This document shows, in pieces, positions 16,283 through 56,896 of a stretch of 64,000 nucleotides of DNA. Source of the DNA: Uranotaenia lowii (lineage: Eukaryota > Arthropoda > Insecta > Diptera > Culicidae); the NCBI RefSeq assembly GCF_029784155.1, contig NC_073691.1:28625976-28689975 (forward strand), in the 5' to 3' direction. A program made the position numbers and the translations under genes. The notes below the pieces were generated by a model. That model searched no databases and was not told where the DNA came from. It worked only from the letters and a program-made list of their open reading frames with translations. Positions within the stretch are counted from its first letter, which is position 1. Each line of letters begins with the position of its first letter.

Positions 16283-16300
16283 TTTTAGACATTGTTAAGG

Positions 16301-18636: not shown

Positions 18637-18760
18637 CCTGATTTCAGGTTTAGATTGCTGATTTCAGATTCAGATTTCAGATTTCAAAATTCAGAATTAG
18701 ATATCAAATTTTGGATTCAGATTTCAGACTCAGATTTTTATATTTGGGATTTCAATTTCG
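18637..18760 (+). repeat. Decayed edge of the 13-bp satellite
   Basis: Irregular words such as TCAGATTTCAGATTT and GATTTCAGACTCAG continue the unit with point changes and indels before the sequence becomes unique. Confidence 0.75.
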
Positions 18761-33794: not shown

Positions 33795-35258
33795 GACTTC
33801 TTAAATCAAAGCACAAATTCATAAATTTTGTTTATACTTTCTAAATGGTTTTAAAGAATGTGTACGTTTTTTTTTTTAAATTTATTTTCAGCGTCATTTC
33901 TAATTAGATATCACTTCTAACAGTTCCGATCTGAATTTTTTTCCCAGTTATCATAAAACTGAATTATTTTTATTCTACCTAAGAGATATGATATTTTTGT
34001 ACCTTATGCTATCATATTCATGCTGTTCTTACTCTGAATTATTATGACCAGCTTTGAAAAGTGGGCATCTTTCAAATAATAAATCTGAATCAACATTTTG
34101 ATTCTAAAAAAAAACATTCCCAAACAAAGAATCTCTATTTGCAATGGAATGTTAATTTCGGGATGTGATTGCTAAGCCTGAAATATATTGATGAATTAGA
34201 ACTAGACATACTAGAAATCATTCTTCAATGTTTTCGTATTCTTTGTTTATTTTTTTAAGGTTTGGGCTTTTATCAATTTTTATTAAGAATAAATAAAATT
34301 CTAGGTATTTTAATGCTTTCTTCTAAAATTCTAAGAGTTGGAAGAGTGGAAGAAAAACTTTTTAGTCCTATCTTCAAAATGTCTATGGTCGGGTTGCGAA
34401 ATTCGACATGATCCATTTGGCTGCCGACACTTATGCTTATGGTCATAGTTTATATGACAAAAATTACAAAACAAAAAATTGCTTATTATGTCTGAATCCT
34501 GAAATTTGGTAAAATTTCCTCAAAAATCGGGTGAATAAAAATAATAGCATTTTTTAAGAGGTTTTTTACACTGAGTCCTATTCAAAATTGATTTTTAAAC
34601 TTTTCCTCCATCATGTTACAATCCACTTATGTCGTTTTTTTTAAGTTGAAGCCGAAAAAAAATATTCATTTTAATTTTTAACTGCGGTGTACCATGACTT
34701 TGGATTACTTTTATAAACAAGTTTAAAAATAGTTGATAAAAAAACTTTGAATCAATTTTGAAAAACTTTGACAAACTGCTTATGATTTACTTCCAGAATA
34801 AATTTAGCACCAAAACATTTGTAGGAAGAATGACAGCTTACTGTTATTTTGATTCCTGGAAAATAAACCAAATCAACTTGAATTCATGTTAAAAATGAAA
34901 AGTAAGAACTTATGTTACTGTAAAATCTGTAAAGTATAGAAATAATTGGAAGATTTAGGGCAGAACATTCAGCCATAAAACTCTAAACATGAGATTTATT
35001 CAAAAAAAAAACAAGAGTTCGTAGAAAATCTCTGAATTTGCAAAAATGCATTTCAAACTCTGTGTAAGGTAATAATATTCAATCAACTCTAATTTACTCA
35101 AAGATTATGTAAGACTTTTCAATCATGTCTGAACCTTGTTTAGGAATTTTTAAAACTAACGTTGGTTGACTGTTTTTGACGAGGTGCTTGATATCCAATT
35201 TCATCAACTGAACAGTTTACACACTTACATCAAATTTTTCAAATATTCAGCTTTCGAA
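33795..35258. other. AT-rich non-coding stretch
   Basis: No gene or structured repeat seen between the SINE and the transposase fragment. The 5' TIR expected for the mariner-group element at 35259 was not found here. Confidence 0.5.
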
Positions 35259-35895
35259 ATGCCGTCCAAGGAAGAACAGCAGCGTATCAAAATTTTGCTC
35301 GCGCATTGCGAAAATCCGAGCTGCTCGCACGCAAAGCTGGCAAAATCGCTTAAAGTTGCCAAATCAACCGTTACAAATGTAATTAAAGTGTTTGGGGAAC
35401 GTTTGTCGACAGCCAGAGAGTCTGGATCGGGGGAAATCGAACACCGGAAGCCGCTGAGACGACAAAGAGAGTTGCCGGTAGTTTCAAGCGAAACCCTAAC
35501 CTCTCTCTCCGAGATGCCGCAAATAAGCTGGGTGTATCGTTTACAACCGTGCATCGAGCCAAAAAACGAGCCGGACTATCGACTAACAAGTAGGTAGTGA
35601 CTCCAAATCGCGATGATAAACAAAATACGACGGCCAAAACGCGATCCTGGAGGCTGTACACGACGAATTTTGACTGCGTGGTAATGGACGACGAAACCTA
35701 CGTCAAAGCCGACTACAAGCAGCTCCCGGGACAGGAGTTTAATACGGCAAAAGGAAGGGGAAAGGAAGCAAATATTTTCAAGCACATGAAACTGTCAATG
35801 TTCGCGAAGAAATATCTGGTTTGGCAAGCCATCTGTACCTGTGGCTTGAAAAGCAGAATTTCCATAGCTTCCGGGACTGTCAACCAAGAAATTTA
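35259..35895 (+). pseudogene. Tc1/mariner-group transposase fragment (MDDETY type)
   Basis: ATG at 35259 starts MPSKEEQQRIKILL. An N-terminal helix-turn-helix region follows (residues ~12-45, AKLAKSLKVAKSTVTNVIK). After a frameshift near 35455-35475 the second DNA-binding part appears (LSLRDAANKLGVSFTTVHRA, 35497-35556). Then comes the start of the catalytic domain with the first Asp in VVMDDETYVKA (about 35681) and KQLPGQEF, WQAICTCG and GTVNQEI. The frame then stops. The segment with the second catalytic Asp and the last acidic residue is missing, so the protein is inactive. The motif set resembles mosquito ITm DD37-type transposases as I remember them; a database comparison is needed for the exact clade. 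Confidence 0.85.
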
Positions 35896-35899
35896 GGTG

Positions 35900-35990
35900 A
35901 AAGGTGAAAATTTAATTTGATTTTTTAAATAAACGATTTCACCTATTTACACGCGTTTTCCCTTGACCAAATTTAGACCGTATCACCCTT
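35900..35990 (+). mobile_element. 3' end of the mariner-group element
   Basis: Non-coding tail ending ACCAAATTTAGACCGTATCA then CCCTT, followed by TA at 35991-35992. The reverse complement (AAGGGTGATACGGTC) is a plausible TIR. It directly follows the truncated frame, so an internal deletion joined the transposase to this tail. Confidence 0.5.
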
Positions 35991-35992
35991 TA

Positions 35993-36243
35993 TGACAAAA
36001 ATATGACAAATGTGGTAACAAAAAATTGACAACAATATCACATAATAATGATAAAATATTAGCTATGAAATGACAAAAAATGGAAATGAAATTACCAAAC
36101 TTGGCAAAATTATTGCATGAAATTGACAATAAAATAACAAAACAAGACAAAAATATGACAATTGAAAAAATATGACAGAATTATGACAAAAATCTGACAA
36201 ATATGACAAAATTATGATAAAAATATGACAAAAATTTATAAAC
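35993..36243 (+). repeat. Irregular TGACAAA-word cluster (satellite-like, decayed)
   Basis: Words such as ATGACAAAAATATGACAAAT and ATTGACAATAAAATAAC recur without a fixed period. They are the same words as the 9-bp satellite at 42022-42949, in the same orientation. Confidence 0.7.
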
Positions 36244-36261
36244 TATGACCCAGAGATGGGT

Positions 36262-37436
36262 CTTGAATCAAACATTCAGTCAGCGAAACTTTTTTGTAGG
36301 GAAATGAATCCTACTGTAAGTCGAAATTTCAGGGACTAGACTACACTCTAATTCTCCCTGACTCAAATTTGAAGGAAAACAATTCAAAATTCGCCAAAAC
36401 TGGGGAAACTCAAAATTTGATTAGAACGGCACAACTCAGATATGAATAATAGGGGGTTTCGCGAATTTTGAGTTGTTTTCAACCAGGCATTTTTAAGGAG
36501 CATCTGAACGGTCTGAGCCAAAACAACTCAGAATTTGTAAAATTTGAACACGGTTTGAAAGGGATTATATTTTTGAAACAAGTGAATAGAAATTTCGGAT
36601 TCAATTCAGTCTAATGAAACAAATGCGTGAATATGTTGTTTGTTTTAATTTCCTGGCATATGCTTGTTTGTTTTGTTGTCAAAAGATGAGGACTGTTGAA
36701 TTATTGAAGCGATGCATTCATTTTGCGCTGGACCGACGGAATCGTCTAGCGTAATTTTTTGAATTAAATCCTCAACCGGGCGGGCGAGTGTGACCATACA
36801 GCATTTCCAGTTGATCTGAAGCCGACAATGTTGATCCAAATTGATGCACCGAAGGAAGCAACAGAAAGCAAACGTTCTTCTGCTCTCCGTTTTTCGGGCA
36901 GCTGTTCCCGCAGAGCTGGAACCTTTTTTGTGTGGATGTTCTGCTGCCGGATGCGGTTCAAAAATTCTGACCCGAGTTGAACTTTCAGGCACCATGACAC
37001 TTGTTACCAGTTCAAATTGGAGGGATATTGCTGTTAAAAACAAGGGCAATTGTTAAAACTATCTAACATTGCAATAAACAAGACTTTTACCTGAAAAAAC
37101 CCGTTGATCACTTCCTCTTTTTTATGCCTTGCAGTTGCAAAATGTTTTTTCTTTGTGTTTTCAAATTGCTCTGAGTAGTTTTAATCCATTTTGCTCGAAA
37201 AAGTGCGCGTCTTTGCTAAGTCCCGGGTTTTTAAACTCGCTAGATGAAAACAACTCAGAATTTTGATGGATTTCAACTCAGTTGTTTTCATCTTCATACA
37301 TGGTGCGATCCATGAACCGAAATTATTCAGTCTCTGAATAATCTAAAATTACCGTGTAGATGAAAATTAATGTTGAAAAACATGCGAAAAAAAATTTTCG
37401 CCTTGTCTCCCGGTAGGACTTGAACCCACATCTTGC
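36262..37436 (-). mobile_element. SINE family B copy, split by a 1.0-kb insertion
   Basis: The minus-strand copy runs from 37436 down to 37357 (B-box-containing head remnant GGGTTCAAGTCCTACCGG and first body part). It continues from 36343 down to about 36262 (CTAGTCCCTGAAATTTCGAC, then TTTCGCTGACTGAATG). The interruption is exact relative to the uninterrupted inverted copy at 37637-37757, which reads straight across as CATCTAGTCTAGTCCC. The 5' half of the tRNA-like head is absent. Confidence 0.8.
36344..37356. mobile_element. TA-flanked insertion in SINE B, 1013 bp
   Basis: Bounded by TA on both sides (36342-36343 and 37357-37358); the neighbouring SINE copy supplies the empty site with a single TA. 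The ends are CACTCTAATT and, read inward from the right, CACGGTAATT. Inside, the word AACAACTCAGAATTT is repeated near both ends (36520 and 37250, inverted AAATTCTGAGTTG-type words also present). Open frames (36645-37049 minus, 134 codons) have no recognised transposase motif. Confidence 0.75.
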
Positions 37437-37588: not shown

Positions 37589-37757
37589 TTGTCTCCTGTA
37601 GTAGAATGTTAATACATGGGCCCCGGAGAGGCGCAAGATGTGGGTTCAAGTCCTACCGGGAGACAAGGCGAATTTTTTTTCGCATGTTTTTCAACATTAA
37701 TTTTCATCTAGTCTAGTCCCTGAAATTTCGACTTACAGTTGGATTCATTTCCCCACA
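37589..37757 (+). mobile_element. SINE family B, tRNA-like head plus body
   Basis: GTCTCCTGTAGTAGAATG to CCTACCGGGAGACA forms a tRNA-like head. The T-arm is well formed: GTGGG stem, TTCAAGT loop, CCTAC stem. The B box GGTTCAAGTCC is perfect and the acceptor halves TCTCCTG/CGGGAGA pair. The A box is degenerate (TAGTAGAATGTT). The body follows (GCATGTTTTTCAACATTAAT, AGTCCCTGAAATTTCGAC). No clean target duplication found. Confidence 0.75.
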
Positions 37758-38770
37758 AAAAATATGACGAAAATTTCAAAATAAAAGGACAAAAATTCGA
37801 CTATGTAGAAATATGATAAAATGAAAAAAAATATGACAAATTTGGTTACTGTCAGATTGTTGTCATAGTTCTACCACATTTGTCATAATTTTGACATGTT
37901 TTTAAATTTTACTGTCAATTTTGAGTGATAGTTTTGTCAGATTTATGTCATTGCTGATGACAGGTGATGATGATAAATGCGGTACAAATGTTTACATCAT
38001 CACACGGTTAGGCGAGACTACAAGACAAATGGGGTTCGTGGTAACACAACAGTGTTGCCAGATATTCTGGGTAAGAGTATCAAAGTACTCATTGAGTAAT
38101 GAGCCTACTTTTCCGGTTAGGGAATATGAGAAGTAGAGTGCGACAATAGCAATCGCTAATGAATTTTGTAGTTATGTAATGACTAGATTGACGAAACATG
38201 AACAATGATAACTCTATTCCACCACTGAAACCTGCGATTTCAACATTTTGTCTTATATTTATCCCCTATGTCAATTTTTGACAAAAATTTATCGAATTTT
38301 TGTATTCTTTTTTTTGGTAAATTCATGTTTTTTTTGTCATAATTATAACTTATTTTTAGCATATTTGTCAGATTTGTCATGATTTTGTAATTTTTTTTCT
38401 CATGTTTTATCATCGTATTTTTTGTCATACTTATTGCATATTTTAGCAATATTTTATCATATTGTCATATTTGATTGATTTGTCTGATTTTTGACTTAAT
38501 TTGTCATTTTTTATTATTTTGTTTTCATATTTATGACATAATTTGTCAAATGTCAAATTTGTCAGATTGTTGTCATTTTATTGTCAAGTTTGTCAGATTG
38601 TTTACATACTATTGTCATAATTTTGTCATGTTTTTACCACATTTATTCTATTTTTGTTATAATTTTCTAACACCATTGTCATATTCATGACATAGCTTTG
38701 TGGGATTTTTATCATTTTATTGTAAATTTTTCGTCGTTGTTTTGTCATATTTTTACCATTTTTATTTTTC
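37758..38770. repeat. Irregular TGACAAA / TTTGTCA word cluster with an orientation switch
   Basis: From 37758 to about 37845 the words run as ATGACAAAA (plus). From about 37850 to 38770 they run as TTTGTCATA/TTGTCAAAT (reverse complement). Spacing is irregular. It resembles a diverged or never-homogenised version of the 9-bp satellites. Confidence 0.7.
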
Positions 38771-41700
38771 AAAAAAATTCGATCAAGTCTGAATCGGGCC
38801 GGTGCCGCGGTGGCTGGATTTCGTTGATAAATAAAAGTTCGGATTTGTTCACTTTTTTTGCGTTCAAAAAAGAAATTTTTCAGCAGTTTTATCAAATTAA
38901 ACGATCTTTCGGACGCACAATAAACGGTTTCAAATCTATCTGTGTTTTGATAAAAAAAAATGTTTTTTAACTGTTTTTTGTTATCATATAATTCCTGGAT
39001 TTTGTCCAAATTCCTGGATTTTGAATTAAAATTTTTCCAATCAAATGCCTGCAAGAAAATTTCTGGTAAGATTGATCATATTTAAGTAGGTTGTAATTGT
39101 GTATGAATTTGAAAGTTTTTTTCATGTATTTGTATCTGAAACTATTTTCAGTGTTCTGGTTTGTTTTATAGTTTTGAAACTGTTTTCGGAAAGGTAAATC
39201 TCTTAGTAGCTACCATAAAAACTTGTGAAAGATTATTTTGTTGACCACCGCTGGCCCCCTGAACTGTCTCGATTGCCCGTTAAATGCATTTCCGCTCCGG
39301 GGCTGAATTTGAATGCACTGCATCCATGTTTGTATGTATGCAAGCATGAATGCATACCCTGGGATTTCACCTTAAAGGAGGAGGGTGGGGTACAGATCTA
39401 CGAAATGCATAATGTATGTAGTGTCGATTTACCTGCCGCCATTTCCCCAACCCTTTTCCCAATCCACCTTCGCTTCACAAAAACTGCAGCCACTGTACAA
39501 CTTTCAAACAACAATCAGTAGCTACCAACTACCAACAACAACAACAACGGCAGCCAGGGAAAGGGGGGATGATTTCAATCACGGAACTTTTGTTCAAGCA
39601 GAAAGAGAGAGAAATTCGAAACAGAACCAGGAAAAAATGGCATAACCGTCAAGTAACACCGAAAGCGTTCCGGAGATGGTGCAATATAAAAATGCAATTT
39701 TTGGCGCATTGGTACCTACAAGCCACGGTTTTCGGTCATCGGAGCTACTACTGATGGTGGGGAAGGAAGTAGAGAGTGAGTTTGAGTGGGTGGAAAGTGG
39801 TTAAAAGTTGCTACTAGCTGACCCAACAGGGTTGGCAGATAGGTGGTGGGGGGGATGGCTGAGCAATTGGAAGTACCGCAACCCAGTGGGCTCCGAATTT
39901 TGGGCAGGACCAAGAGATTGGCAAAAAATGTGTTGGGTATCGCCAGGAAGTGCTGGTGTGGAGGCTTGCAGAAAGGGAAATTGTGGAAAAAGTTACGTTT
40001 GCTGCAGAATTTTCCCCACACAAAGTGTGAGGCGTGGTACTGCATTGGTTGATTTGATTGATACACTAGTTGATTGATACTTGGGCGGAAGTACATGTTT
40101 TTAAATAGAAATATGTATGTATGTCCAAGAAACTTTTACCCGTTAGAGTACCTGGAGTGTCGTTTTAAGAATCCTGAATAAAAACCGCTATATCCCTTTT
40201 TTTCTCAACCGATTTCAGAAATGAAGAGATAATCTACCCATTTTTCAAAATTTATAGTTTTGGAAACTTTTAAACGTAACTTAAATTAAACAGTCATTGT
40301 CGTAGACACAAAAAAATATGCAAAAAATATTTTTTTTTAAATTCCTAGTATCAAAATAAAAAAAAAACGTTTACTACGTTACTACACGTTTTTTCCATTT
40401 TCAAATAACGCTAACCACATGTCAATTTTGGATTCCGAAAGCCACCGCCAAAAATGAAAACGTGTGGCCAAAAACAAGAAACCGAGAAATAAAAGCTAAC
40501 CAAATTGAACTGTCAGCAATCTTATGACGTTTCCGAAGGATGGACAAAAATAAATCTAATTCACATAATTTGATTCGTTCTGGTTCGGTCGAACCCGGCC
40601 CAAGCAAGGGCAAACAATTGTCACCTAATTTTCTGCAATTTCTTTCTGCCAACCGGCTGCGCTTGGTCGGGATTAAAGATTGAGAAATGAAAAAAAACTC
40701 AAAGAAAACCTACGCTTTTTTGTCTCGAGAACGTCTTCAAAGAACAAACCGAAAGATCCTTTTGACTTTAATGTAAAATGTTCCGGATTAAGTAGAAAAC
40801 CAGTCAAGAATGGCTCTTTCCTTTGCTAGGTTTGTTGGCCTTCAATGTGGTGAATGCGATATGGAAGCTTTTTGAGTTATGTTCATTACACGCTATTCAT
40901 CAAATCTTGACCACCGTTTGGTATGGATATTGTTCAATTGAGGACAGTCATCAGGACGAATTTCTAAATACAGATATCAGAATTTATAATTCAAAGTTCA
41001 GGACATGCTGAGACAAGAGCTCAGATGAATGTCATCCAAATTGCTTGGCTAGATTTCCATCTTTACAGTTGGACTTTTTTATATAGACTTTTTCATCAAA
41101 CATAGAAATTTTTTGACTAGACACAGCTTGTACAAACGAATCAATCGGCGAGACCACCATTATTGAGACTACCGTGTGCCAAGCGCCAGACAACTTCATG
41201 TCGAAATTTTTCTGGCACCGACCACAAACCAAAGGAGTAGTGTGGCGACCGTCATTTTTTTGCCTCCCCTGGAAGCAGTTCCAAGCAGATGTTGTCCCCG
41301 CCAGAAGCACACAGAGGACCCTGCCGGCTACATCAAATCATATCCACTATGGATGAGTTGATTGCCATATTTTGGGGCCCCGAAATATGCGGGTAACCTC
41401 GTTCCCGCAACCCACAAAAGCGGTCGTTATCAAATCCCGGCCGGATCCGATACTGCACATAAAGTCTGGTTGGGTCCTGGTCCTGGTGGTGGTCGCTTCA
41501 GCGTTGTTGCGTCGCAGTTGTCGAAGCACTTGAGGAAGACAAAAATTTCCGATGCGCTTTTCCGGCCCCCAACCGATGCCTGGCAGTGGTATTTGGATCA
41601 GTTTGGGTGATGGTATGGGGAGGAATCAGAAAAAAAAACGCGGAAAAAACTGCCCAAATCCGACGATGTGTGATGGAAGATTTGGGACTTTGGGTCAGGC

Positions 41701-41990
41701 TCGACGTTCCAAAACGTGACATTTCCAATTGGTCGTAGTGTGGTTCAATGAAAAACATCCAAATAACACAATCGGAAGCATGAAGGAGATAAACCTGTTG
41801 AAACGAGACTTTGAAGGCTAAGAAATTAGCGCACAGATAAAAAAAAACTAATATTTTCGATTCAACTTAGAATAAATCCCTGAAAATGCTAAATTTTCAA
41901 AATCGGAATGTTGATACAACAAGAAAAAGATTTCCAACATATTATGGTATGACAATAAACTTAAAAAATTCACAAGAGATTCATTTCGAG
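38771..41990. other. Unique sequence between the decayed words and the large satellite block
   Basis: GC-richer sections at 39225-40080 and 41150-41760 contain overlapping short frames on both strands (up to 126 codons, 39716-40096 minus) with no recognised domain. It may hold host exons, but nothing in the sequence lets me name one. Confidence 0.35.
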
Positions 41991-42021
41991 AAAAGACAGA
42001 AAAATGAAATAGAATTGAAAC

Positions 42022-42949
42022 AAAAATAACACAAAATGACAAAAATGACAAAAATGACAAAAAAGACAAAAAAGACAAAAATGACAAAAATGACAAAAAT
42101 GACAAAAATGACAAAAATAACAAAAATGACAAAAATGACAAAAATGACAAAAATGACAAAAATGACAAAAATGACTAAAATGACAAAAATGACAAAAATG
42201 ACAAAAATGACAAAATTGACAAAAATGAAAAAAATGACAAAAATGACAAAAATGACAAAAATGACAAAAATGACAAAAATGACAAAAATGACAAAAATGA
42301 CAAAAATGACAAAAATGACAAAAATGACAAAAATGACAAAAATGACAAAAATGACAAAAATGACAAAAATGACAAAAATGACAAAAATGACAAAAATGAC
42401 AAAAATGACAAAAATAACAAAAATGACAAAAATGACAAAAATGACAAAAATGACAAAAATGACAAAAATGACAAAAATGACAAAAATGACAAAAATGACA
42501 AAAATGACAAAAATGACAAAAATGACAAAAATGACAAAAATGACAAAAATGACAAAAATGACAAAAATGACAAAAATGACAAAAATGACAAAAATGACAA
42601 AAATGACAAAAATGACAAAAATGACAAAAATGACAAAAATGACAAAAATGACAAAAATGACAAAAATGACAAAAATGACAAAAATGACAAAAATGACAAA
42701 AATGACAAAAATGACAAAAATGACAAAAATGACAAAAATGACAAAAATGACAAAAATGACAAAAATGACAAAAATGACAAAAATGACAAAAATGACAAAA
42801 ATGACAAAAATGACAAAAATGACAAAAATGACAAAAATGACAAAAATGACAAAAATGACAAAAATGACAAAAATGACAAAAATGACAAAAATGACAAAAA
42901 TGACAAAAATGACAAAAATGATGACAAAAATGACAAAAATGACGAACAT
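42022..42949 (+). repeat. 9-bp satellite (TGACAAAAA)n, ~100 copies, left flank of the mirror block
   Basis: Unit TGACAAAAA, the reverse complement of the units at 13404 and 51628. Nearly perfect from 42420 to 42915, with variants (TAACAAAAA, AAGACAAAA) toward the left edge. It switches at about 42950 to the TTACAAAAA unit. Confidence 0.97.
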
Positions 42950-45915
42950 GAAAAAATTACAAAAATTACAAAAATAACAAAAATTACAAAAATTACAAAA
43001 ATTACAAAAATTACAAAAATTACAAAAATTACAAAAATTACAAAAATTACAAAAATTACAAAAATTACAAAAATTACAAAAATTACAAAAATTACAAAAA
43101 TTACAAAAATTACAAAAATTACAAAAATTACAAAAATTACAAAAATTACAAAAATTACAAAAATTACAAAAATTACAAAAATTACAAAAATTACAGAAAT
43201 TACAAAAATTACAAAAATTACAAAAATTACAAAAATTACAAAAATTACAAAAATTACAAAAATTACAAAAATTACAAAAATTACAAAAATTACAAAAATT
43301 ACAAAAATTACAAAAATTACAAAAATTACAAAAATTACAAAAATTACAAAAATTACAAAAATTACAAAAATTACAAAAATTACAAAAATTACAAAAATTA
43401 CAAAAATTACAAAAATTACAAAAATTACAAAAATTACAAAAATTACAAAAATTACAAAAATTACAAAAATTACAAAAATTACAAAAATTACAAAAATTAC
43501 AAAAATTACAAAAATTACAAAAATTACAAAAATTACAAAAATTACAAAAATTACAAAAAATTACAAAAATTACAAAAATTACAAAAATTACAAAACTTAC
43601 AAAAATTACAAAAATTACAAAAATTACAAAAATTACAAAAATTACAAAAATTACAAAAATTACAAAAATTACAAAAATTACAAAAACTAAAAAAAATACA
43701 AAAATTACAAAAATTACAAAAATTACAAAAATTACAAAAATTACAAAAATTACAAAAATTACAAAAATTACAAAAATTACAAAAATTACAAAAATTACAA
43801 AAATTACAAAAATTACAAAAATTACAAGAATTACAAAAATTACAAAAATTACAAAAATTACAAAAATTAAAAAAATTACAAAAATTACAAAAATTACAAA
43901 AATTACAAAAATGACAAAAATTACAAAAATTACAAAAATTATAAAAATTACAAAAATTACAAAAATTACAAAAATTACAAAAATTACAAAAATAACAAAA
44001 ATTACAAAAACTACAAAAATTACAAAAATTACAAAAATTACAAAAATTACAAAAATCACAAAAATTACAAAATTTACAAAAATTACAAAAATTACAAAAA
44101 TTACAAAAATTACAAAAATTACAAAAATTACAAAAAGAACAAAAATTACAAAAATTTCAAAAATTACAAAAATTACAAAAATTACAAAAATTACAAAAAT
44201 TACAAAAATTACAAAAATTATAAAAATTACAAAAATTACAAAAATTACAATAATTACAAAAATTACAAAAATTACAAAAATTACAAAAATTGCAAAAATT
44301 ACAAAAATTACAAAAATTACAAAAATTTCAAAAATTACAAAAATTACAAAAATTACAAAAATAACAAAAATTACAAAAATTACAAAAATTACAAAAATTA
44401 CAAAAATAACAAAAATTACAAAAATTACAAAAATTACAAAAATTACAAAAATTACAAAAATTACAAAAATTACAAAAATTACAAAAATTACAAAAATTAC
44501 AAAAATTACAAAAATTACAAAAATTACAAAAATTACAAAAATTACAAAAATTACAAAAATTACAAAAATACAAAAATTTCAAAAATTACAAAAATTACAA
44601 AAATTACAAAAATTACAAAAATTAGAAAACTTACAAAAATTACAAAAATTACAAAAATTACAAAAATTACAAAAATTACAAAAATTACAAAAATTACAAA
44701 AATTACAAAAATTACCAAAATTACAAAAATGACAAAAATTACAAAAATTACAAAAATTACAAAAATTACAAAAATTACAAAAATTACAAAAATTACAAAA
44801 ATTACAAAAATAACAAAAATTACAAAAATTACAAAAATTACAAGAATTACAAAAATTACAAAAATTACAAAAATTAAAAAAATTACAAAAATGACAAAAG
44901 TTACAAAAATGACAAAAATACAAAAATTACTAAAATTACAAAAATTACAAAAATTACAAAAATTACAAAAATTACAAAAATTACAAAAATTACAAAAATT
45001 ACAAAAATTACAAAAATTACAAAAATTACAAAAATTACAAAAATTACAAAAATTACAAAAATTACAAAAATTACAAAAATTACAAAAATTACAAAAATTA
45101 CAAAAATTACAAAAATTACAAAAATTACAAAAATTACAAAAATTACAAAAATTACAAAAATTACAAAAATTACAAAAATGACAAAAATGACAAAAATTAC
45201 AAAAATTACAAAAATGACAAAAATTACAAAAATGACCAAAATTACAAAAATTACAAAAATTACAAAAATTACAAAAATTACAAAAATTACAAAAATTACA
45301 AAAATTACAAAATTTACAAAAATTACAAAAATTACAAAAATTACAAAAATTACAAAAATTACAAAAATTACAAAAATTACAAAAATTACAAAAATTACAA
45401 AAATTACAAAAATTACAAAAATTACAAAAATTACAAAAATTACAAAAATTACAAAAATTACAAAAATTACAAAAATTACAAAAATTACAAAAATTACAAA
45501 AATTACAAAAATTACAAAAATTACAAAAATTACAAAAATTACAAAAATTACAAAAATTACAAAAATTACAAAAATTACAAAAATTACAAAAATTACAAAA
45601 ATTACAAAAATTACAAAAATTACAAAAATTACAAAAATTACAAAAATTACAAAAATGACAAAAATGACAAAAATGACAAAAAATGACAAAAATTACAAAA
45701 ATTACAAAAATTACAAAAATGACAAAAATTACAAAAATTACAAAAATGACAAAAATTACAAAAATTACAAAAATTACAAAAATTACAAAAATTACAAAAA
45801 TTACAAAAATTACAAAAATTACAAAAATTACAAAAAATACAAAAATTACAAAAATTACAATAATTACAATAATTACAAAAATTACAAAAATGACAAAAAT
45901 TATAAAAATTACAAA
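42950..45915 (+). repeat. 9-bp satellite variant (TTACAAAAA)n, ~330 copies
   Basis: Same length and A5 tract as the preceding unit but TTAC instead of TGAC. It is mostly homogeneous. Short reversions to TGACAAAAA occur at 43911, 44729, 44890-44915, 45178-45235 and 45655-45750, so the two variants are interspersed near block edges. Sporadic variants (TTATAAAAA, TTTCAAAAA) increase after 43900. Confidence 0.97.
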
Positions 45916-45939
45916 AGTGTCAAAAATATTTGACTGAAA

Positions 45940-47160
45940 TTTCGAAAGATTGACAGAAATTTTAGGCAAATACACAAAACTACAAAATTTATAGAACTTT
46001 TCAGAATTTTATTGAAATTTTAAGAAATTGACAGATACTTTCAGAAATTTACAGAAACTTAAAGAAATTTACAGCAATTTCCATAAATTTACAGAAATAT
46101 GAAAAAATTTACAGACATTCACAAAAATTTGCAGAAATTTACAGAAATTGACAGAAATTATCAAAAATTTAAAGAAATTTACAGAAATTCATTGAAATTT
46201 GCAGAAATTTACAAAAATTTACAGAAATGTACAGAAATGTACAAAAATATACAGAAATTTGCAGAAATGTACAGAAATTTACTGAAATTTACAGAAATTT
46301 ACAGAAATTTACAGAAATTTACAGAAATTTACCGAAATTTACAGAAATATACAGACATTTACAGAAATTTACAAAAATTTACAGAAATTCACAGGAATTC
46401 ACAGAAATTTACAAAAAATTATAGAAATTTTACGGTAATTCACTGAAATTTACAGAAATCTACAGAAATTTACAGAAATTTACAGAAATCTACAAAAATT
46501 TACAGAAATTTACAGAAATTTACAGAAATTTACAGAAATTTACAGAAATGTGCAGAAATTAAACGAAATTTACAGAAATTTACAGAAATTTACAAAAAGT
46601 TACAGAAATTTACAGAAATTTACAGAATTTTACAGAAATTTACAGAAATTTTTAGAAATTTATTAAAATTCTCAGAAGTTTACAGAAGTTTACAGAAATT
46701 AACAGAAATTTACAGAAACTTACAGAAATTTACAGAAATCTTCAAAAATTTACAGAAATTCACTGTAATTTACAAAGTTTTTCATAAATTTGGAGAAATT
46801 TTCAGCAATTGACAGAAATTTACAGAAATGTACAGAAATATATAGATATATACAGGAATTTGCAGAAATGTACAGAAATTTACAGAAATTTACCGAAATA
46901 TACAGAAATATACAGAAATTTACAGAAATTTCAGAAATTTACAGAAATTTACCGATATATACAGGTATATACAGAAATTTACAGAAATTTCAGAAATTTA
47001 CAGAAATTTCAGAAATTTACAGAAATTTACAGAAATTTACGGAAATTTACAGAGATTTACAGAAATTAAAAGAAATTTACAAAAATTTACAGAAATTTAC
47101 TGAAATTTACGTTTGTTTACAGAATTCTGCAGAAGTTTACAATAATTAACATAAATTTAC
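45940..47160 (+). repeat. 10-bp satellite (TTTACAGAAA)n, degenerate, ~120 units
   Basis: Unit AAATTTACAG, with frequent substitutions (ATATACAGAA, GTACAGAAAT) and small indels; much less homogeneous than the 9-bp arrays. It is the reverse complement of the array at 49245-51620. Confidence 0.93.
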
Positions 47161-47529
47161 AGAATGAGAAATGAAAAATGAGAAAAAAGAAAAAAGATAT
47201 GAGAAATGAGAAATGAGAAAAGAGAATTTATAATTGAGAAATGAGAAATATAAAGAATGAGATTAGATATGAGAAATGAGAAATGAGAAATGAGAAATGA
47301 GAAATGAGAAATGAGAAATGAGAAATGAGAAGTGAGAAATGAGAAATGAGAAATGAGAAATGAGAAATGAGAAATGAGAAATGAGAAATGAGAAATGAGA
47401 AATGAGAAATGAGAAATGAGAAATGAGAAATGAGAAATGAGAAATGAGAAATGAGAAATGAGAAATGAGAAATGAGAAATGAGAAATGAGAAATGAGAAA
47501 TGAGAAATGAGAAATGAGAAATGAGAAAT
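47161..47529 (+). repeat. 7-bp satellite (GAGAAAT)n
   Basis: Irregular to about 47270, then roughly 37 nearly perfect GAGAAAT copies to 47527, with one GAGAAGT variant near 47331. No counterpart is visible on the other side of the central segment, so it breaks the mirror symmetry. Confidence 0.95.
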
Positions 47530-47650
47530 AGAAAAAAAAAATGCAATGTTAGAGTTTGGTTCTGAATTTGAATGGACTTCCCTAAACTTTGTTCGTTCTG
47601 AATTGTCCGTCAATCGGGGGATCGAGGGATTTAAAACAAAAACCGAAAAA

Positions 47651-48040
47651 CTAACAACGTCCATATTGAATTGGTTGACGGATTTTGTCTTTTTTGTTCT
47701 TCTGAGCGCCTACCCGTTGTTGTTGTTCTGATGCCGGTGGAGACGATGGCACCCGTTTTGATGATTGTCGAAATTGTGTCATTCCGAGGTTTTTATTTTC
47801 ACTCTGTTCACTTGATTCAGAAAAAGTTCTCTCGGCTGCACTGTTGTTTGGAAATGTCAGGCCGTTTCGTTGGTTCTTTGGAAGTATTGTGGAATCAGAA
47901 ATACAGCCGCAAAAAAGAGCAGATAAAAACCGTTCGTCGAAAATCAGTACGTCATACACCTGAACGGGACGAAAGTTGTGGCCGGTGTGGTCTTTGATAA
48001 ACTGTATCACTGTGTTCACTTGACTCTTTTTGGGTGCCAT
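47651..48040 (-). CDS. Hypothetical protein or exon, 130 codons, between satellite flanks
   Basis: Best host-gene candidate in the window. The minus-strand ATG at 48040 has a favourable context (GATAAAATGGCACCC). The product begins [20 protein letters not shown], with an ordered-looking N-terminal half (residues ~8-50, including [20 protein letters not shown]). It then becomes polar: Ser/Glu/Gln-rich around residues 65-110 with EQQQ, and a basic stretch QKNKKDKIR near 113-121. No transmembrane segment or signal peptide is evident. The segment is GC-richer than the satellites around it. The frame ends at TAG (47651), or could splice before it. I do not recognise the family, and no further exon was identified. 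Confidence 0.4.
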
Positions 48041-49244
48041 TTTATCAAAGGAAGCAGTCGATTGACGGCAGACACTTTACTCAATTGATGGCCGCTTCTC
48101 GATTTTACCGATTGCGATTTTTTCAAAAGGAGCTCTGTTTTTTTGGGATTTTGAACACAGTTTGTAAAAATTGGAACCTTTGACTCCTACTTTGACAAAT
48201 CAGATACATTTTTTACATTCAGTTTCCGCTTTTACATTTTCAAAATTTTCATTTAAATATTGTATCTGTTTTAAAATGCGTAAAATTCATTTTTCAATTT
48301 TCTTCCACAGAAAGATAATTCGAAATAATTTCAGTTGCATCTGTCACCCGGAGGGGGAAAACACCCAAATGATTGTCGGATTCTTCGTTTGCACATCTGC
48401 CGGCCACCATTTTAAGCCATTCACACTCTCTTGGGGTCAGGCTGAAATGCACATGCCATTGACGAACGAGAGAAAAAAAAACTGCATACCAATTAAAAAA
48501 TCGATTCACCAGAATTGGAACCGAAAAATTGTGTCCTGGCGGACAACGACGACAACATCGGAGGACCGATTTTTTTTTCTCGGATGACCCGGATGGCCGA
48601 CTTCGCTTCACTCCAGTCAGTTGGGTGAGCGGGAAAAAATCCAATTAATATTGAGGCAAATATTTTGTGGTATCCATAAAAAAAATCACCACTGTCACCG
48701 ATGATGTTGTGACCGAGCTGTGCCGTTCTTTTTTTTTGGGCGAACGAAAAAAAGTTATTGGAAGTCGCCAGACACGATGCGCGGCCAATAAATGTACAAT
48801 CGTGGGGATAACACCGAAAATGAATGGTGGTAAGTTGAGAGTGGATACAACAGTAAAAAAAACCCTCGACTAACTCTATCAGAATTTGGCCGGGGGATTT
48901 TATTCGGATCAGATTGATGGGCTTTCTGTTTCCGGTGACAACATTCGGGAGCGCGAAAAATAACTAACAATCAGCCGCCCGGGAGTTATGCGTCGTGGTG
49001 ACGAAGTCGAATTATTTGCATTTTCACGTTTTTAAGAATTTTCCAATTATTGATCGCCCAAAAGGGAAGTCGAGATAGTTGAAAATTATTGAAAATAACG
49101 ATTTTTTTTCTGAATTGAAATTCTGAAAGTTTTGGCTTAGTTTCAACCATTGATTTGTTGAAAAAAATTAAAAATAACCGTGAACTTTGTATTTTCTGTA
49201 ATGATCTAATTTTGTTAGGTTCAATATTCTGTTATTAAAAAATG
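48041..49244. other. Remaining central non-repetitive segment
   Basis: Upstream (5') side of the candidate gene. Section 48330-48630 is GC-richer and holds frames on both strands (116 codons minus at 48294-48644, 138 codons plus at 48171-48587) without recognisable motifs. 49000-49244 is AT-rich and grades into the 10-bp array. Confidence 0.35.
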
Positions 49245-51620
49245 TTTTTAAATTTCTTGAAATTTCTGTAAATTCCTGTAAATTTCTTCAAATTCCTGTG
49301 AAACTTTGTTGATTTCTGTGAATTTCTGTGAATATCTGTGAATTTTTGTTAATTTATGTAAATTTCTGTAAATTTCTGTAAATTTCTGTAAATTTCTGTA
49401 AATTTCTGCAAATTTCTGTAAATTTCTGTAAATTTCTGTAAATTTATGTAAATTTCTGAAAAATTTCTGTAAATTTCTGTAAATTTCTGTAAATTTCTGT
49501 AAATTTCTGTAAATTTCTGTAAATTTCTATAAGTTTCTTCAAATTTCTGTAAATTTCTTAAAATTTCTGTAATATTCTAAAAATTTCTTAAAACTCTGCT
49601 AATATCTGAAAACTTTTGTTTATTTCTGCAAATTTCCATAACTTTTCTGTAATGTTCTACATATGCTTGTAAATTTCTGTAAATTTCTTTAAATTGCTGA
49701 AAATTTTTTGTAAATTTCTGTAAATTTCTGTAAATTTCTGTAAATTTCTGTAAAATTTTGTAATTTTCTTCAATTTTATGTAAAACTCTGTAAATGTCTG
49801 TTGAAATCTGTATATCTGTATGTTAATTTCTGTGAATTGCTGCGAATTTCTGGTTATTAATGTAAATTTCTTTGAGTTTCTGTAAATTTCTTGATTTTTT
49901 TTTCAAAATTTCTCCATGTGTTAATCTCAATCAATTTCTGATAATTCCTGTAAATTTCTGTAAATTTCTGTAAATTTCTGTAAATTTCTGTAAAGATCTG
50001 TAAATTTCTGTATATTTCAATAAGTTTCTGTAAATTTCCGTGAATTTCTGTAAATTTCAATAAATTTCTGAACATTTCTGTGAATTTCTGTAAATTTCTC
50101 TTAATCTCGGAAATTTCTGTTAATCTCTGTAAATTTCTGTAAAGATCTGTAAATTTATGTAGATTTCAGAAAATTTCTGTAAATTTCGGTGAATTTCTGT
50201 AAGTTTCAATCAATTTCTGTAAATTTCGGTGAATTTCTGTAAATTTCTGTTAATCTCTGTAAATTTCTGTAAATTTTTGAAAATTTCTTAATATTTCTGG
50301 TATTTTCTGTAAATTTCTGTAAATTTCTGTTAATTTCTGTAAATTTCTGTAAATTTCTGTAAATTTCTGTAAATTTCTGTAAATTTCTGTAAATTCCTGT
50401 AAATTTCTGTAAATTTCTGTAAATTTCTGTAAATTTCTGTAAATTTCTGTAAATTTCTGTAAATTTCTGTAAATTTCTGTAAATTTCTGTAAATTTCTGT
50501 AAATTTCTGTAAATTTCTTCAAAATTCTGTAAATTTCTGCAAATTTCTGTAAATTTCTGGAAATTTCTGTAAATTTCTGTAAATTGCTGTAAATTTCTGT
50601 AAATTTTTGTAAATTTCTGTAAATTTCTGTAAATTTCTGTAAATTTCTGTAAATTTCTATAAATATCTGTAAATTTCTGTAAATATCTGTAAATATCTGT
50701 AAATTTCTGTAATTTTTTTTTCAATTTTTGTAAAATTCAGCAAATATCTGAAAATCTTTGTTTATTTTTGTAAATTTCTATAATTTTTCTGTGATGTTCT
50801 ATAAATGCCTGTAAATTTCTGTAAATGTTGGAAAATTTCAGTAAATTTTTGTAAATTTCTAGAAATTTCTGAAAGTTTCTGTACATTCCTGTAAATTTTG
50901 GTAAACTTCTGTAACTTTCTTCAAATTTATGTAAATCTCTGTAAATTTCTGTTAAAATCTGTATATTTCTGTAAATTACTATAAATTTCTGTCAAAATTT
51001 TGTAATTTTTTTTTATAAATGTTAATTTCTGAAAAAATTCTTCAAATACCTGCAAAACTGTTGATTTCTGTGAATATTTGTAAATTTCTGTGAATTGCTG
51101 GGAGTTTCTGTTAATTGTTGTAAATTTCTTTAGGTTTCTGTAAATTTCTGTAATTTTTTAAAAATTTCTTCAAGTGTTAATTTCAAACAATTTCGAATAA
51201 TTCCTGAAAATTACTGTAATATTCTGTAAATTTCGGAACATTTCTGTAAACTTTTGTTAAATTTCTGAAAATTTCTGTAAATTTCAATCAATTTCTGTAA
51301 ATTTCTGTAAATTTCTGTAAATTTCTGTAAATTTCTGTAAATTTCTGTATAGTTCTGTAAATTTCTGTAAATTTCTGAAAATTTCAGTAAATTTCTGTAA
51401 ATTTCTATAAATTTCGGTAAATTTTTGTAAATTTCTGTAAATTTCTATAAACTTCTGTAAATTTCTGTATATTCCTGTAAATTTCTGTAAATTTTTTAAA
51501 TTTCGGTAAATTTCTGAAAATTCCTGATAAATTTTGTGAATTTCTGTAAATTCCTGCGAATATTAGATTGGGTTGAAAATTTCTGTTAATTTTTGTAAAT
51601 ATAGGTAAATTTCAGAAAAT
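49245..51620 (-). repeat. 10-bp satellite (AAATTTCTGT)n, ~235 units, right flank of the mirror block
   Basis: Plus-strand unit AAATTTCTGT, the reverse complement of the 45940-47160 array. It is most regular at 50330-50510, where about eighteen units are almost identical, and degenerate elsewhere with TTTGT, TTTATGT and TTCTTCA variants. Confidence 0.95.
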
Positions 51621-51627
51621 TATGTCA

Positions 51628-53943
51628 AATTTTGTCATTTTTGCATTTGTGTCACTTTTGTCATTCGTGTTATTTTCGTTATTTTCGTCATTTTTGTCAT
51701 TTTTGTCATTTTTGTCATTTTTGTCATTTTTGTCATTTTTGTCATTTTTGTCATTTTTGTCATTTTTGTCATTTTTGTCATTTTTGTCATTTTTGTCATT
51801 TTTGTCATTTTTGTCATTTTTGTCATTTTTGTCATTTTTGTCATTTTTGTCATTTTTGTCATTTTTGTCATTTTTGTCATTTTTGTCATTTTTGTCATTT
51901 TTGTCATTTTTGTCATTTTTGTCATTTTTGTCATTTTTGTCATTTTTGTCATTTTTGTCATTTTTGTCATTTTTGTCATTTTTGTCATTTTTGTCATTTT
52001 TGTCATTTTTGTCATTTTTGTCATTTTTGTCATTTTTGTCATTTTTGTCATTTTTGTCATTTTTGTCATTTTTGTCATTTTTGTCATTTTTGTCATTTTT
52101 GTCATTTTTGTCATTTTTGTCATTTTTGTCATTTTTGTCATTTTTGTCATTTTTGTCATTTTTGTCATTTTTGTCATTTTTGTCATTTTTGTCATTTTTG
52201 TCATTTTTGTCATTTTTGTCATTTTTGTCATTTTTGTCATTTTTGTCATTTTTGTCATTTTTGTCATTTTTGTCATTTTTGTCATTTTTGTCATTTTTGT
52301 CATTTTTGTCATTTTTGTCATTTTTGTCATTTTTGTCATTTTTGTCATTTTTGTCATTTTTGTCATTTTTGTCATTTTTGTCATTTTTGTCATTTTTGTC
52401 ATTTTTGTCATTTTTGTCATTTTTGTCATTTTTGTCATTTTTGTCATTTTTGTCATTTTTGTCATTTTTGTCATTTTTGTCATTTTTGTCATTTTTGTCA
52501 TTTTTGTCATTTTTGTCATTTTTGTCATTTTTGTCATTTTTGTCATTTTTGTCATTTTTGTCATTTTTGTCATTTTTGTCATTTTTGTCATTTTTGTCAT
52601 TTTTGTCATTTTTGTCATTTTTGTCATTTTTGTCATTTTTGTCATTTTTGTCATTTTTGTCATTTTTGTCATTTTTGTCATTTTTGTCATTTTTGTCATT
52701 TTTGTCATTTTTGTCATTTTTGTCATTTTTGTCATTTTTGTCATTTTTGTCATTTTTGTCATTTTTGTCATTTTTGTCATTTTTGTCATTTTTGTCATTT
52801 TTGTCATTTTTGTCATTTTTGTCATTTTTGTCATTTTTGTCATTTTTGTCATTTTTGTCATTTTTGTCATTTTTGTCATTTTTGTCATTTTTGTCATTTT
52901 TGTCATTTTTGTCATTTTTGTCATTTTTGTCATTTTTGTCATTTTTGTCATTTTTGTCATTTTTGTCATTTTTGTCATTTTTGTCATTTTTGTCATTTTT
53001 GTCATTTTTGTCATTTTTGTCATTTTTGTCATTTTTGTCATTTTTGTCATTTTTGTCATTTTTGTCATTTTTGTCATTTTTGTCATTTTTGTCATTTTTG
53101 TCATTTTTGTCATTTTTGTCATTTTTGTCATTTTTGTCATTTTTGTCATTTTTGTCATTTTTGTCATTTTTGTCATTTTTGTCATTTTTGTCATTTTTGT
53201 CATTTTTGTCATTTTTGTCATTTTTGTCATTTTTGTCATTTTTGTCATTTTTGTCATTTTTGTCATTTTTGTCATTTTTGTCATTTTTGTCATTTTTGTC
53301 ATTTTTGTCATTTTTGTCATTTTTGTCATTTTTGTCATTTTTGTCATTTTTGTCATTTTTGTCATTTTTGTCATTTTTGTCATTTTTGTCATTTTTGTCA
53401 TTTTTGTCATTTTTGTCATTTTTGTCATTTTTGTCATTTTTGTAATTTTTGTGATTTTTGTAATTTTTGTAATTTTTGTAATTTTTGTAATTTTGTAATT
53501 TTTGTAATTTTTGTAATTTTTGTAATTTTTGTAATTTTTAAAATTTTTGTAATGTTTGTTGTGTTTGTCATTTTTGTCATTTTTGTCATTTTTGTCATTT
53601 TTGTCATTTTTGTCAATTTTGTCATTTTTGTCATTTTTGTCATTTTTGTCATTTTTGTCATTTTTGTCATTTTTGTCATTTTTGTCATTTTTGTCATTTT
53701 TGTCATTTTTGTCATTTTTGTCATTTTTGTCATTTTTGTCATTTTTGTCATTTTTGTCATTTTTGTCATTTTTGTCATTTTTGTCATTTTTGTCATTTTT
53801 GTGATTTTTGTCATTTTTGTCATTTTTGTCATTTTTGTCATTTTTGTCATTTTTGTCATTTTTGTCATTTTTGTCATTTTTGTCATTTTTGTCATTTTGT
53901 CATTTTTGTCATTTTTGTCATTTTTGTCATTTTTGTCATTTTT
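51628..53943 (-). repeat. 9-bp satellite (TTTTTGTCA)n, ~255 copies, right flank
   Basis: Plus-strand TTTTTGTCA. About 51690-53435 contains roughly 190 consecutive copies with no variant that I can find by eye. A TTTTTGTAA patch occupies 53438-53545 (with GTGATT and AAAATT variants), after which TTTTTGTCA resumes. It yields open frames up to 800 codons that are artefacts of the period. Confidence 0.97.
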
Positions 53944-54240
53944 GGTGTCATTTTTGTGTTATTTTTGTGTTATTTTTGTGTCATTTTTGTGTCATTTTTG
54001 TGTCATTTTTGTGTCATTTTTGTCATTATTGTGACATTTTTGTGTAATTTTTATATCATTTATGTTTAATTTTTGTCCTTATTGTGTCATTTTTGTGTCC
54101 TTTTTATATCATTTATGTTTAATTTTCGTGTCATTATTTTTTTTTGTCATTTTTATGTCATTTTTAATGTCATGGTTTTGTCATTTTTGTTTCATTTTTG
54201 TGTCGTTTTTGTGTCATTTTTTTGTCATTTTTGTTCTTTT
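53944..54240 (-). repeat. 11-bp derivative array (GTGTCATTTTT)n, degenerate
   Basis: The 9-bp unit with an added GT (GTGTCATTTTT, GTGTTATTTTT) repeats with period 11 for about 80 bases, then becomes irregular. It forms the outer edge of the right flank. Confidence 0.85.
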
Positions 54241-54884
54241 TTTCGTCCTATTCCTTGTCGCTTTATCTTTCGATCAGGAATGTCATTATGCAATTCTTCT
54301 ATATAGGAAAATAAACTCAACTGATCCTACTGATTGAAAATTCTGGAAAGTGATAACCGAACGGATACTTGATTTTCCGTAGCTCAATAAAAAATACATT
54401 CATACATAAACAGAGATAGTTCGAAATGCGAAAAATAAACATACATTTGGTGGCTATATTTTTCATCCGAAATAAAAAGCTCTAAGCAAATTTCAGAGCC
54501 ACAGAGAGGCGGAAAAATTGACAAACCGATCAAAACTTGAAAAAGGAAAAAAAAAATCAATCAGCGATTCACAAATGCACGCACACTATGGCGATCTGAT
54601 TATTCTCAACCCTAACTCGAATAAAATTGGGCAGAATGAAAAGGTATGTAGTTTGGCGATTTAGCATTAAAAAAATTGGTCAAATTCTCCCATTCATTCA
54701 GTTGAGTGTGGATGCACAAAATATATAAGAGTCAATATGAAAAATTGAGTATCTGCTATGTGAGTCCTGATTTTTTCACCGAAAGTGTATCTTTTTTTTT
54801 TTTATTGTTGTGTGATTTCTATAGTGCACTTTGTGATCCAGAACTTGAAAAAATTTCAAGTGAGTTTGGTTTAATTTGAAAAAG
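54241..54884. other. Unique AT-rich stretch
   Basis: No gene or repeat seen between the satellite edge and a SINE. Confidence 0.5.
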
Positions 54885-54897
54885 TTATCTCAACTGT

Positions 54898-55086
54898 TTT
54901 TTTTGTTTTGATTATAGTCGTTTTACCATCTTTATGGCATTCGCGACTTTATCAACGTTGCAGTTGACGGATCGCTATTGAAAAACTATCCGGTACAACT
55001 GTGTTCGATGTTTACTCTTGGGCTCGAACTCACGGACATCGGCTCAGGAGACAACAGACTTGCCAACTGAGCTATGTCACAAGCTC
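54898..55086 (-). mobile_element. SINE family A, intact, 13-bp target duplication
   Basis: Same structure as the 33592 copy. The minus-strand head has box A TAGCTCAGTTGG (preceded by ACA instead of ATA) and box B AGTTCGAGCCC, and the body ends CGACTATAATCAAAAC plus an A tail. TTATCTCAACTGT lies at 54885-54897 and 55087-55099. The two intact copies differ at only a few positions. Confidence 0.93.
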
Positions 55087-55099
55087 TTATCTCAACTGT

Positions 55100-56896
55100 G
55101 AAAATTATCTATTTTCCTGAAAATATTCGTAAGCCTGGGAAATTCAAAAGCAAGGACCTCTAGAAAACAGATTTATTATAATTTTTTGTTTGTTGAACTG
55201 TCGTATTAAAGAAATAATTATAAATTTCGAAGGAACCAGAATTTAAGGAAAAACGCCTCAATCCACGAGCAACTTTTGAACTGTTACATTATCAAATTAG
55301 TCAATTAAATTTGCCGGTGTCCGATTCGCTATCAATCCTCAATCGGATTAAACGCCAAAGTAGCAAACAGTATCAAATCATTTCAGGATTAGTCTGTCTG
55401 GGCCCCTTCTGGATTGATGAACATTCTAATATCAAATATACCCATCCACTATTCCTGTTTCGGTCAGTCAGCTAGTTAGTGATTTAGTGGGTTGAGAAAA
55501 AAAAGAACAGAAACTTTTTTTCGCAAAACACGTCACCACCAGGCCACATTTCAGAGGAAACGAGTGGCTTTGGCCAGTCAGTAGCTACCTACACCTAAAC
55601 AACTAACACGAGCCGTACCTCGAGGCCCAGAATAGAACATAGATTTTTGAAGCCAAAAGAGTACGAATGTGGGTACTGAGATTGTCCTGTGTCCAGCGAG
55701 TGAGTGGCAAAGCGAATTAAAATGTGGTCAGCGATAGCGCTGGATTACAGAAACTCAACTGTCCGCAAATTTTAATCCAATTTGCAGATATAGAGGGAAA
55801 CCACACCGAGACAAACACGAGGATCGGACATGAACCCAGTCAAAGTTGGGACATTTGGAGGAGACTCCAAGCTAATGGACTAGTTATTTTTCGGGATTTT
55901 TATTCTGCTTTCAGTTGGCACCCCATTTGTGGGCTCGCCGTGTTTTAGTGCAGTGTGGTTTTCTCGGGCTTCACTTAGATAGTTCTTGGGACTCTTCGTT
56001 TTATGTACACCCATAGAAGAGATTGCAGAAATCCAATGCCTATTAACGGGGTGGGAATGGGAACAAGAAACTGTTTTCTATTGGTGGCCGGTTTACATAC
56101 ACACGCACAGCTCAACTTGGCTGGTGATTTTTTGTCGTCGGTTGGAAACAAAGAATTTCATTTTTATAACGCTCGGTACATCATTCGACAAAATCCTTGC
56201 TGGCTGATTGTTTCCATCCTGCGTTATCTTGTGATAGGATATAGGAAATGTTTTATTTGGTTTTTTTTCAGACGTATGCAATGCAGTTGCGCTGGGTGGA
56301 CATTGCCAGTTATTAGAAAGCTTGTTAATGACGGTCCGGCATAGAATCTCATACCGATAATTCCACCTTCGAGGAAGTTCATTATTGGAGTACAGTCTGA
56401 TTTGTGGGTGTAGAAAGACTACACTTGTGGTATTCTTTTTTATTCAATTAAACCTCTTAGTAGGGTACTGTGATCTGGTTAGTGTCAAATTATTTCACTT
56501 CAACATCATAAATACATTATTGAGCATTTATTGAGATCCGGTCTAATCGTACGCCATACGCATAGTAATTGATTAATTGGCATGAGTTCTGCTGATTGGA
56601 CTATCGTCGAACAAAAGTTTAATAAAATGAAGGGTTAGTGGTGAGTGAAATACTGTTCTAAAGCTTAGTGCATTTAGAAATGGGACAGTTACAAATGTGT
56701 GTATCTCAAAAACCATTCGTTTGATCGAAATACGTTCTATGAAGAAAATAAAGGTAATATCATGATAATTCATAAAAAAATTTAAAAAAAAAATCGTCGT
56801 TTTTTTGTGAGAAAAATGTCTACTTTATTCTTGGTATCTCCCATCGGTCAGCGCACACTTTTTTCTGTCATGATATTGATCATTTTTTCCAACTTA
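55100..56896. other. Unique stretch, possible host sequence
   Basis: GC-richer between 55300 and 56350, with plus-strand frames of 73-113 codons (55724-55948, 55986-56344) lacking recognised motifs. No structured repeat. Confidence 0.35.

Follow-up and report, generated by a model that had tools for sequence, protein, structure and literature searches.

The window analysed here is a stretch of 64,000 nucleotides (C1:28625976-28689975), and positions are counted from its first base unless they carry the prefix C1. Between about 42 and 54 kb it holds a block of short-unit satellite arrays that lie in opposed orientations on the two sides of a non-repetitive centre (Table 1). On the plus strand the left-side TGACAAAAA, TTACAAAAA and TTTACAGAAA arrays are A-rich and the right-side TTTCTGTAAA and TTTTTGTCA arrays are T-rich, and the outer edges of the block fade into degenerate array. 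No N gap falls within 42-54 kb, the nearest being at 31946-32445 and 65155-65654. A preliminary description of this DNA had seen a mirror of four related satellites, in reversed order, around a 1.7-kb centre. The centre is present between opposed arrays, and the opposed orientation is real. The reversed order, however, holds for two satellite types and not for three or four, because the short GTAA patch, thought to lie between the 10-mer and the TGTCA array, sits inside the TGTCA array instead. The list of four units was also incomplete, given that the left AATGAGA array has no counterpart on the right. That the block is not a simple recent palindrome was correctly seen: the arms have only their units in common and differ in lengths and order. 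Inverted similarity, sought between the left and right unique flanks and within the centre, amounts to nothing beyond matches of 14-25 bp.

Table 1 Features of the mirrored satellite block and its centre, in window positions.
Feature	Position	Strand	Basis and remarks
Left outer arm, TGACAAAAA satellite, near-perfect units	42020-~42945 (0.93 kb)	+	Array calls; start sequence nearly identical in the duplicate
TTACAAAAA variant array	~42950-45930 (3.0 kb)	+	Duplicate has TGACAAAAA here, with TTAC traces only
Left 10-mer array, TTTACAGAAA	~45930-47165 (1.24 kb)	+	10.8% from unit; no such block in the duplicate
AATGAGA array	47163-47534 (372 bp)	+	In both copies, borders the centre on its left side only
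Centre, 1.7 kb, non-repetitive	47535-49248		One other genomic copy
Possible gene start, ATG at 48040	47651-48040	-	ORF only; 2-base insertion within it in the duplicate
Splice-donor-like ATGAATGGTG followed by GTAAGT, donor at 48830	48820-48835	+	Same sequence in both copies; motif identified by eye only
Right 10-mer array, TTTACAGAAA on the minus strand (TTTCTGTAAA on the plus strand)	about 49249-51629 (2.4 kb)	-	12.5% from unit
Right outer arm, TGACAAAAA on the minus strand (TTTTTGTCA on the plus strand)	51630-53440	-	Array calls
Short TTACAAAAA patch (GTAA on the plus strand) within the right outer arm	~53441-53552	-	Array calls
Right outer arm, second part, degenerating outward with TTTTTGTGTCA variants	53553-54235	-	Array calls

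Several other repeats lie in or near the window. A 2.9-kb TTTTTGTCA array, 19 bases and then a 2.4-kb array of a 13-mer (TTTCAGATTCAGA) occupy 13404-18737, and a closely similar 13-mer appears again at window coordinates 123373-125598. At 24280-25390 there is a higher-order tandem repeat of 256 bp, composed of 32- and 75-bp sub-units, and 62065-63373 contains a retroelement piece with an RNase H match (Pfam). Further out, the 1.6 kb at C1:28762710-28764300 (window coordinates 136735-138325) hold the same ORFs several times on both strands, as a small cluster of tandem and inverted repeats. A second, degenerate mirror consists of a TGACA-rich stretch on the left (35985-36260) and a TGTCA-rich stretch on the right (37850-38760); it encloses 54-bp inverted arms (36290-36343 and 37709-37762, 96%) and a tRNA-Ser (37591-37665) that has an inverted partner. 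Next to it, 35160-35893 carries what we take to be a mariner-like transposase piece, with weak helix-turn-helix Pfam matches only. We rejected the mariner-like element at ~35-36 kb as a source of the TGACA-rich ends: TGACA occurs 14 times there, against 0 to 4 times in the other five stretches that bear a copy.

The genome scanned comprised 1,077,602,043 bases in 2009 contigs; C1 (216 Mb), C2 (437 Mb) and C3 (370 Mb) together make up ~95% of the total, and such a three-chromosome layout has a parallel in culicine mosquitoes. Exact triples of TGACAAAAA number 2,099,343 genome-wide (1,067,627 forward and 1,031,716 reverse) and those of TTACAAAAA, the TTAC unit that is one base away from the TGACAAAAA unit, 152,230 (78,519 forward and 73,711 reverse). 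The 10-mer TTTACAGAAA, by comparison, is rare, with 97 exact triples (31 forward and 66 reverse) in 9 arrays across 1.08 Gb, a lower bound on the arrays given that exact triples miss strongly decayed ones. The fewest hits per array was 3. These arrays are the left arm (5 triples), the right arm (29) and its counterpart in a duplicate of the locus (16); the remaining six are at other loci on C1, C2 and C3, each of which has 3 to 11 triples, all on one strand. The expected number of 10-mer pairs no more than 3 kb apart is 1.6e-4 for 8 independent arrays and 0.018 for 80, so that two opposed 10-mer arrays within 3 kb are hardly a product of chance. In the stretches of 3-5 kb compared at the six other loci, nothing matched the centre of the block or its flanks, and no opposed 10-mer partner was seen, the arrays at L039 and L041 extending past their stretch. 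At one of the six (L037:1-719) a near-perfect array of another 9-mer, ATTGTCAAA, adjoins the 10-mer array, and at L041 a few TGACAAAAA units do so.

The 264 kb around the block hold no other 10-mer array among the TRF rows above 100 bp. They do hold six TGACAAAAA arrays longer than 2 kb, whose orientations run T, T, A, T, A, T (the left 9-mer run of the block counted as one), and a few short degenerate T-rich TGACAAAAA arrays. With six such arrays in mixed orientations, a mirror above chance is not demonstrated for the 9-mer pair alone, and the TGACAAAAA arms taken by themselves could be a coincidence. The 21 A-to-T array junctions that were counted stand without a T-to-A comparison and are not used as evidence. 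The whole block might likewise be an accident, in which a pair of arrays of the most abundant satellite ended up close to each other in opposition and each array mutated locally into related variants. The sheer number of TGACAAAAA triples, the mixed array orientations nearby and the closeness of the common TTAC unit to TGACAAAAA fit this reading, as do two observations described below, namely that the duplicate is without half of the claimed mirror and that the two 10-mer arms bear no sequence sign of common descent. What it accounts for poorly is the 10-mer, which is rare and yet found on both sides, centre-proximal and in opposite orientation, and we judge an accident of this kind unlikely, if worth keeping in view. 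The preliminary description had itself allowed that scattered arrays would make the mirror order a coincidence; this applies to the 9-mers, which are abundant and of mixed orientation, but not to the 10-mer, two of whose 9 arrays oppose each other here.

The stretch 39221-56047 (+) is duplicated directly at C1:28814594-28829386, ~149 kb away, with its unique flanks included and beyond the scaffold gap at 65155-65654. The single other genomic copy of the centre lies there (C1:28822363-28823873; 94% over query positions 233-1642 and 88% over 1-93). Opposed outer arms, the left AATGAGA array and the right 10-mer array are common to both copies, whereas the left TTAC and left 10-mer blocks are found in the window copy only. 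The left arm of the duplicate consists of 4.49 kb of nearly uniform TGACAAAAA, with traces of TTAC and without a 10-mer block; its inner parts are 0.42 kb of AATGAGA, a centre with 143 bp deleted and a right 10-mer array 1.34 kb long, and its right outer arm is 2.4 kb of TTTTTGTCA. The duplicate shows strong arm-by-arm turnover. The duplication did not create the mirror, given that the outer mirror is carried by both copies. An inverted join built by the assembler from one array is conceivable in that simple-repeat arrays of several kilobases are hard to assemble, but the same opposed outer arms and centre recur 149 kb away with matching junctions, and the block has no internal N gap. The position of the duplicate beyond a scaffold gap argues, indirectly, against such a misassembly, which we consider extremely improbable.

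Differences between the copies are distributed unequally along the flanks. On the left, 40 of 800 sites differ over 39225-40024 and 5 of 1,999 over 40025-42024; on the right, the counts are 52 of 631 and 41 of 945. The low-mismatch tract 40025-42024 (compared with C1:28814594-28817371) ends at the array edge and has ~5% mismatch just outside it. From this near-identity we infer a recent gene conversion that reached the array edge, although an assembly effect could have left the same tract. The 40 scored matches included no third copy of the flank that might serve as an outgroup; apart from the two known copies they consist of 38 members of a dispersed ~92-bp repeat. This repeat lies at 40123-40215 and has copies on C1-C3; the first look had given 226 candidates, from which the 40 were scored.

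The centre differs between the copies at 85 of 1,542 sites, and here too the differences fall unevenly, with 0-5 per 100 across a core at 48235-49034 and with 17 of 98 at 48135-48234 and 18 of 82 at 49135-49234. Pfam returned no match, and no transposase, for the five centre ORFs that were tried, and the PDB returned no match for the possible minus-strand gene start (47651-48040). The coding status of this ORF is uncertain, given the frame-changing 2-base insertion and the 143-bp deletion in the duplicate. The conserved core may perhaps be a gene-start or regulatory region.

If divergent genes did start in the centre, the mirror could have a functional cause. It would mark a divergent gene-start region or a replication start, and satellites would expand or survive only with their T-rich unit on the strand leaving the centre, that is, on the sense strand of those genes, through transcription or replication. 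Besides the possible minus-strand ATG at 48040 and the donor-like plus-strand site at 48830, both in or near the conserved core, two arrays elsewhere agree with this. ZP-domain-like exons on the plus strand, at window coordinates -25981 to -20251, are the best-supported host gene among the ORFs listed (Pfam ZP-N 3.4e-4, CUT_C 4.7e-6 and Zona_pellucida 1.4e-4, each below its curated cut-off); an array ends ~1 kb upstream of them, and its T-rich strand is their sense strand. At one of the other 10-mer loci (L036) the array lies downstream of two small minus-strand ORFs and is T-rich on their sense strand. The gene calls behind this agreement are nevertheless weak, in the centre for want of a Pfam or PDB match and through the altered frame of the duplicate, in the ZP-like exons because the scores stay below the cut-offs, and at L036 because the ORFs have no convincing Pfam match. 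The arms that fit, 4 of 4 where any gene guess existed, are too few and were chosen afterwards. We therefore give this functional reading little credence. Were it true, the way arrays point throughout 1 Gb would record, fossil-like, the direction of transcription or of forks, and one could read mirrored blocks as marks of bidirectional promoters or origins; an orientation that tracked gene strand genome-wide would amount to a general and easily tested rule on what drives satellite expansion. The cruciform, chromatin or replication role that had been suggested for the block finds no support here, and the explanation favoured below needs no function for the mirror.

Divergence from the 10-mer unit is 10.8% in the left arm, 12.5% in the right arm and 12.3% in the right arm of the duplicate. 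By this measure the left and right 10-mer arrays are apparently of similar age, although equal divergence could also be a steady state instead of equal age. Where the centre passes into the right 10-mer array, the initial bases of the array are conserved in both copies, and the end of the left arm next to AATGAGA aligns with a similar short 10-mer-like stretch in the duplicate. Judging from the equal divergence and this similar junction, the left 10-mer was probably lost in the duplicate rather than gained in the window copy, as far as a comparison of two copies can tell.

The array interiors were compared through the distinctive k-mers that they have in common, with the cut for ‘distinctive’ set at distance 4 from a perfect array. 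At k-mer lengths of 12, 14, 16 and 20 bp, the left and right 10-mer arms of the window have 2, 1, 0 and 0 in common (a looser count finds one left/right 16-mer, at distance 3), the left arm and the right arm of the duplicate 10, 5, 0 and 0, and the two right arms 37, 33, 15 and 5. Simulated independent arrays have on average 16-21 (12 bp), 13-20 (14 bp) and 8-11 (16 bp) in common; for the two right arms the simulations reached at most 33, 31 and 27, respectively. The two right arms thus lie slightly above the simulated values at 12 and 14 bp, and the left and right arms of the window have fewer k-mers in common than independent arrays would; with a simulated null that exceeds the observed left/right sharing, the test says little. 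Alignment was no more telling. The centre-side ends of the left and right arms score 546, no better than shifted controls (432-674). Neither do the two right arms stand out, at their inner end (595; controls mean 583, maximum 804) or at their outer end (617; controls mean 504, maximum 659). Given that even these position-matched arms align no better than controls, the interiors of the arrays are of no use for judging descent, in either direction.

Since the sequence tests within the arrays are uninformative, a common origin of the arms rests on rarity and position, and it is the rarity of the 10-mer that makes a local common origin the best reading of the opposed arms. We favour, with moderate confidence, a composite satellite that was copied locally in inverted orientation, later duplicated together with its flanks, and remodelled separately in each arm. 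A composite block, with the TGACAAAAA 9-mer outside and the TTTACAGAAA 10-mer inside, would have stood beside the centre, and an inverted copy of it would have arisen across the centre through inverted duplication or local reinsertion of array DNA. The whole locus with its unique flanks would then have been duplicated directly to a site 149 kb away; the duplicate is observed, and its place in the order of events is our reconstruction. The arms would have changed independently from then on, leaving the window copy with the TTAC variant block and the left 10-mer, and the duplicate with 4.5 kb of nearly uniform TGACAAAAA at the TTAC/10-mer site, its own left 10-mer probably lost. Recently, gene conversion between the copies may have reached the outer array edge.

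This composite-copy explanation stays close to the ancient inverted duplication, with arrays growing and shrinking independently, that had first been proposed. The rarity of the 10-mer, the equal divergence and the remodelled duplicate agree with that proposal; the lack of inverted similarity outside the arrays, the lack of distinctive 16- or 20-bp variants common to the 10-mer arms, and inner ends that align no better than controls do not. A micro-inversion with a single breakpoint in an array was also considered. It produces opposed halves but on one side leaves the 10-mer remote from the centre, and so fails the observed order unless the starting array was composite.

Two copies of one mirrored locus display change in simple-repeat arrays side by side. 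The turnover is visible in variant blocks that occur in one copy only and in 3-4 kb that are uniform in one copy and layered in the other. A near-identical tract runs to the array edge, and a 1.7-kb centre has been partly conserved amid the change in the arrays.

Among known systems, foldback transposons (Tetris and relatives) resemble the block in form: their inverted repeats contain tandem repeats and flank a non-repetitive middle domain, and such elements can seed satellites (PMC4079207). The earlier statement that the block has no described counterpart was therefore too strong. Among the matches listed, as far as their available text goes, the pattern was not described in the literature on the TGACAAAAA satellite, mosquito satellite arrays, euchromatic satellite with circular DNA, or inverted satellite duplication. 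The block could be a foldback-type DNA transposon, its tandem-repeat arms inserted with the loop as a unit and later amplified, and the opposed 9-mer and 10-mer arrays do form long inverted arms of tandem repeats. Its centre, however, is not dispersed into different flanks, the single other copy having the same unique flanks, and none of the six other 10-mer loci matches centre or flanks in the stretches compared. The arms also differ strongly in length and composition. The five centre ORFs gave no match in Pfam to the transposase that an autonomous copy should carry, but a nonautonomous copy would also be without one. We hold an origin as a foldback element to be very unlikely.

Two other known systems have features in common with the locus. 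As a segmental duplication, the locus comprises ~16.8 kb in two direct copies with flanks included, and is thus longer than the usual minimum (≥1 kb), of high identity (99.75% over a single 2-kb tract, ~92-96% over the rest of the flanks), inclusive of unique sequence and bounded by defined ends; unlike in an ordinary segmental duplication, an outer mirror is present in both copies. Dispersed satellite DNA consists of short-unit arrays scattered through a genome, with variant blocks, expansion and contraction. The same features are seen here, with tandem 9-mer units at many genomic places and the 10-mer at 9 arrays only. The block differs from such DNA in that a rare 10-mer family forms part of its opposed pair and in that a direct duplicate reveals the turnover of its arms one by one.
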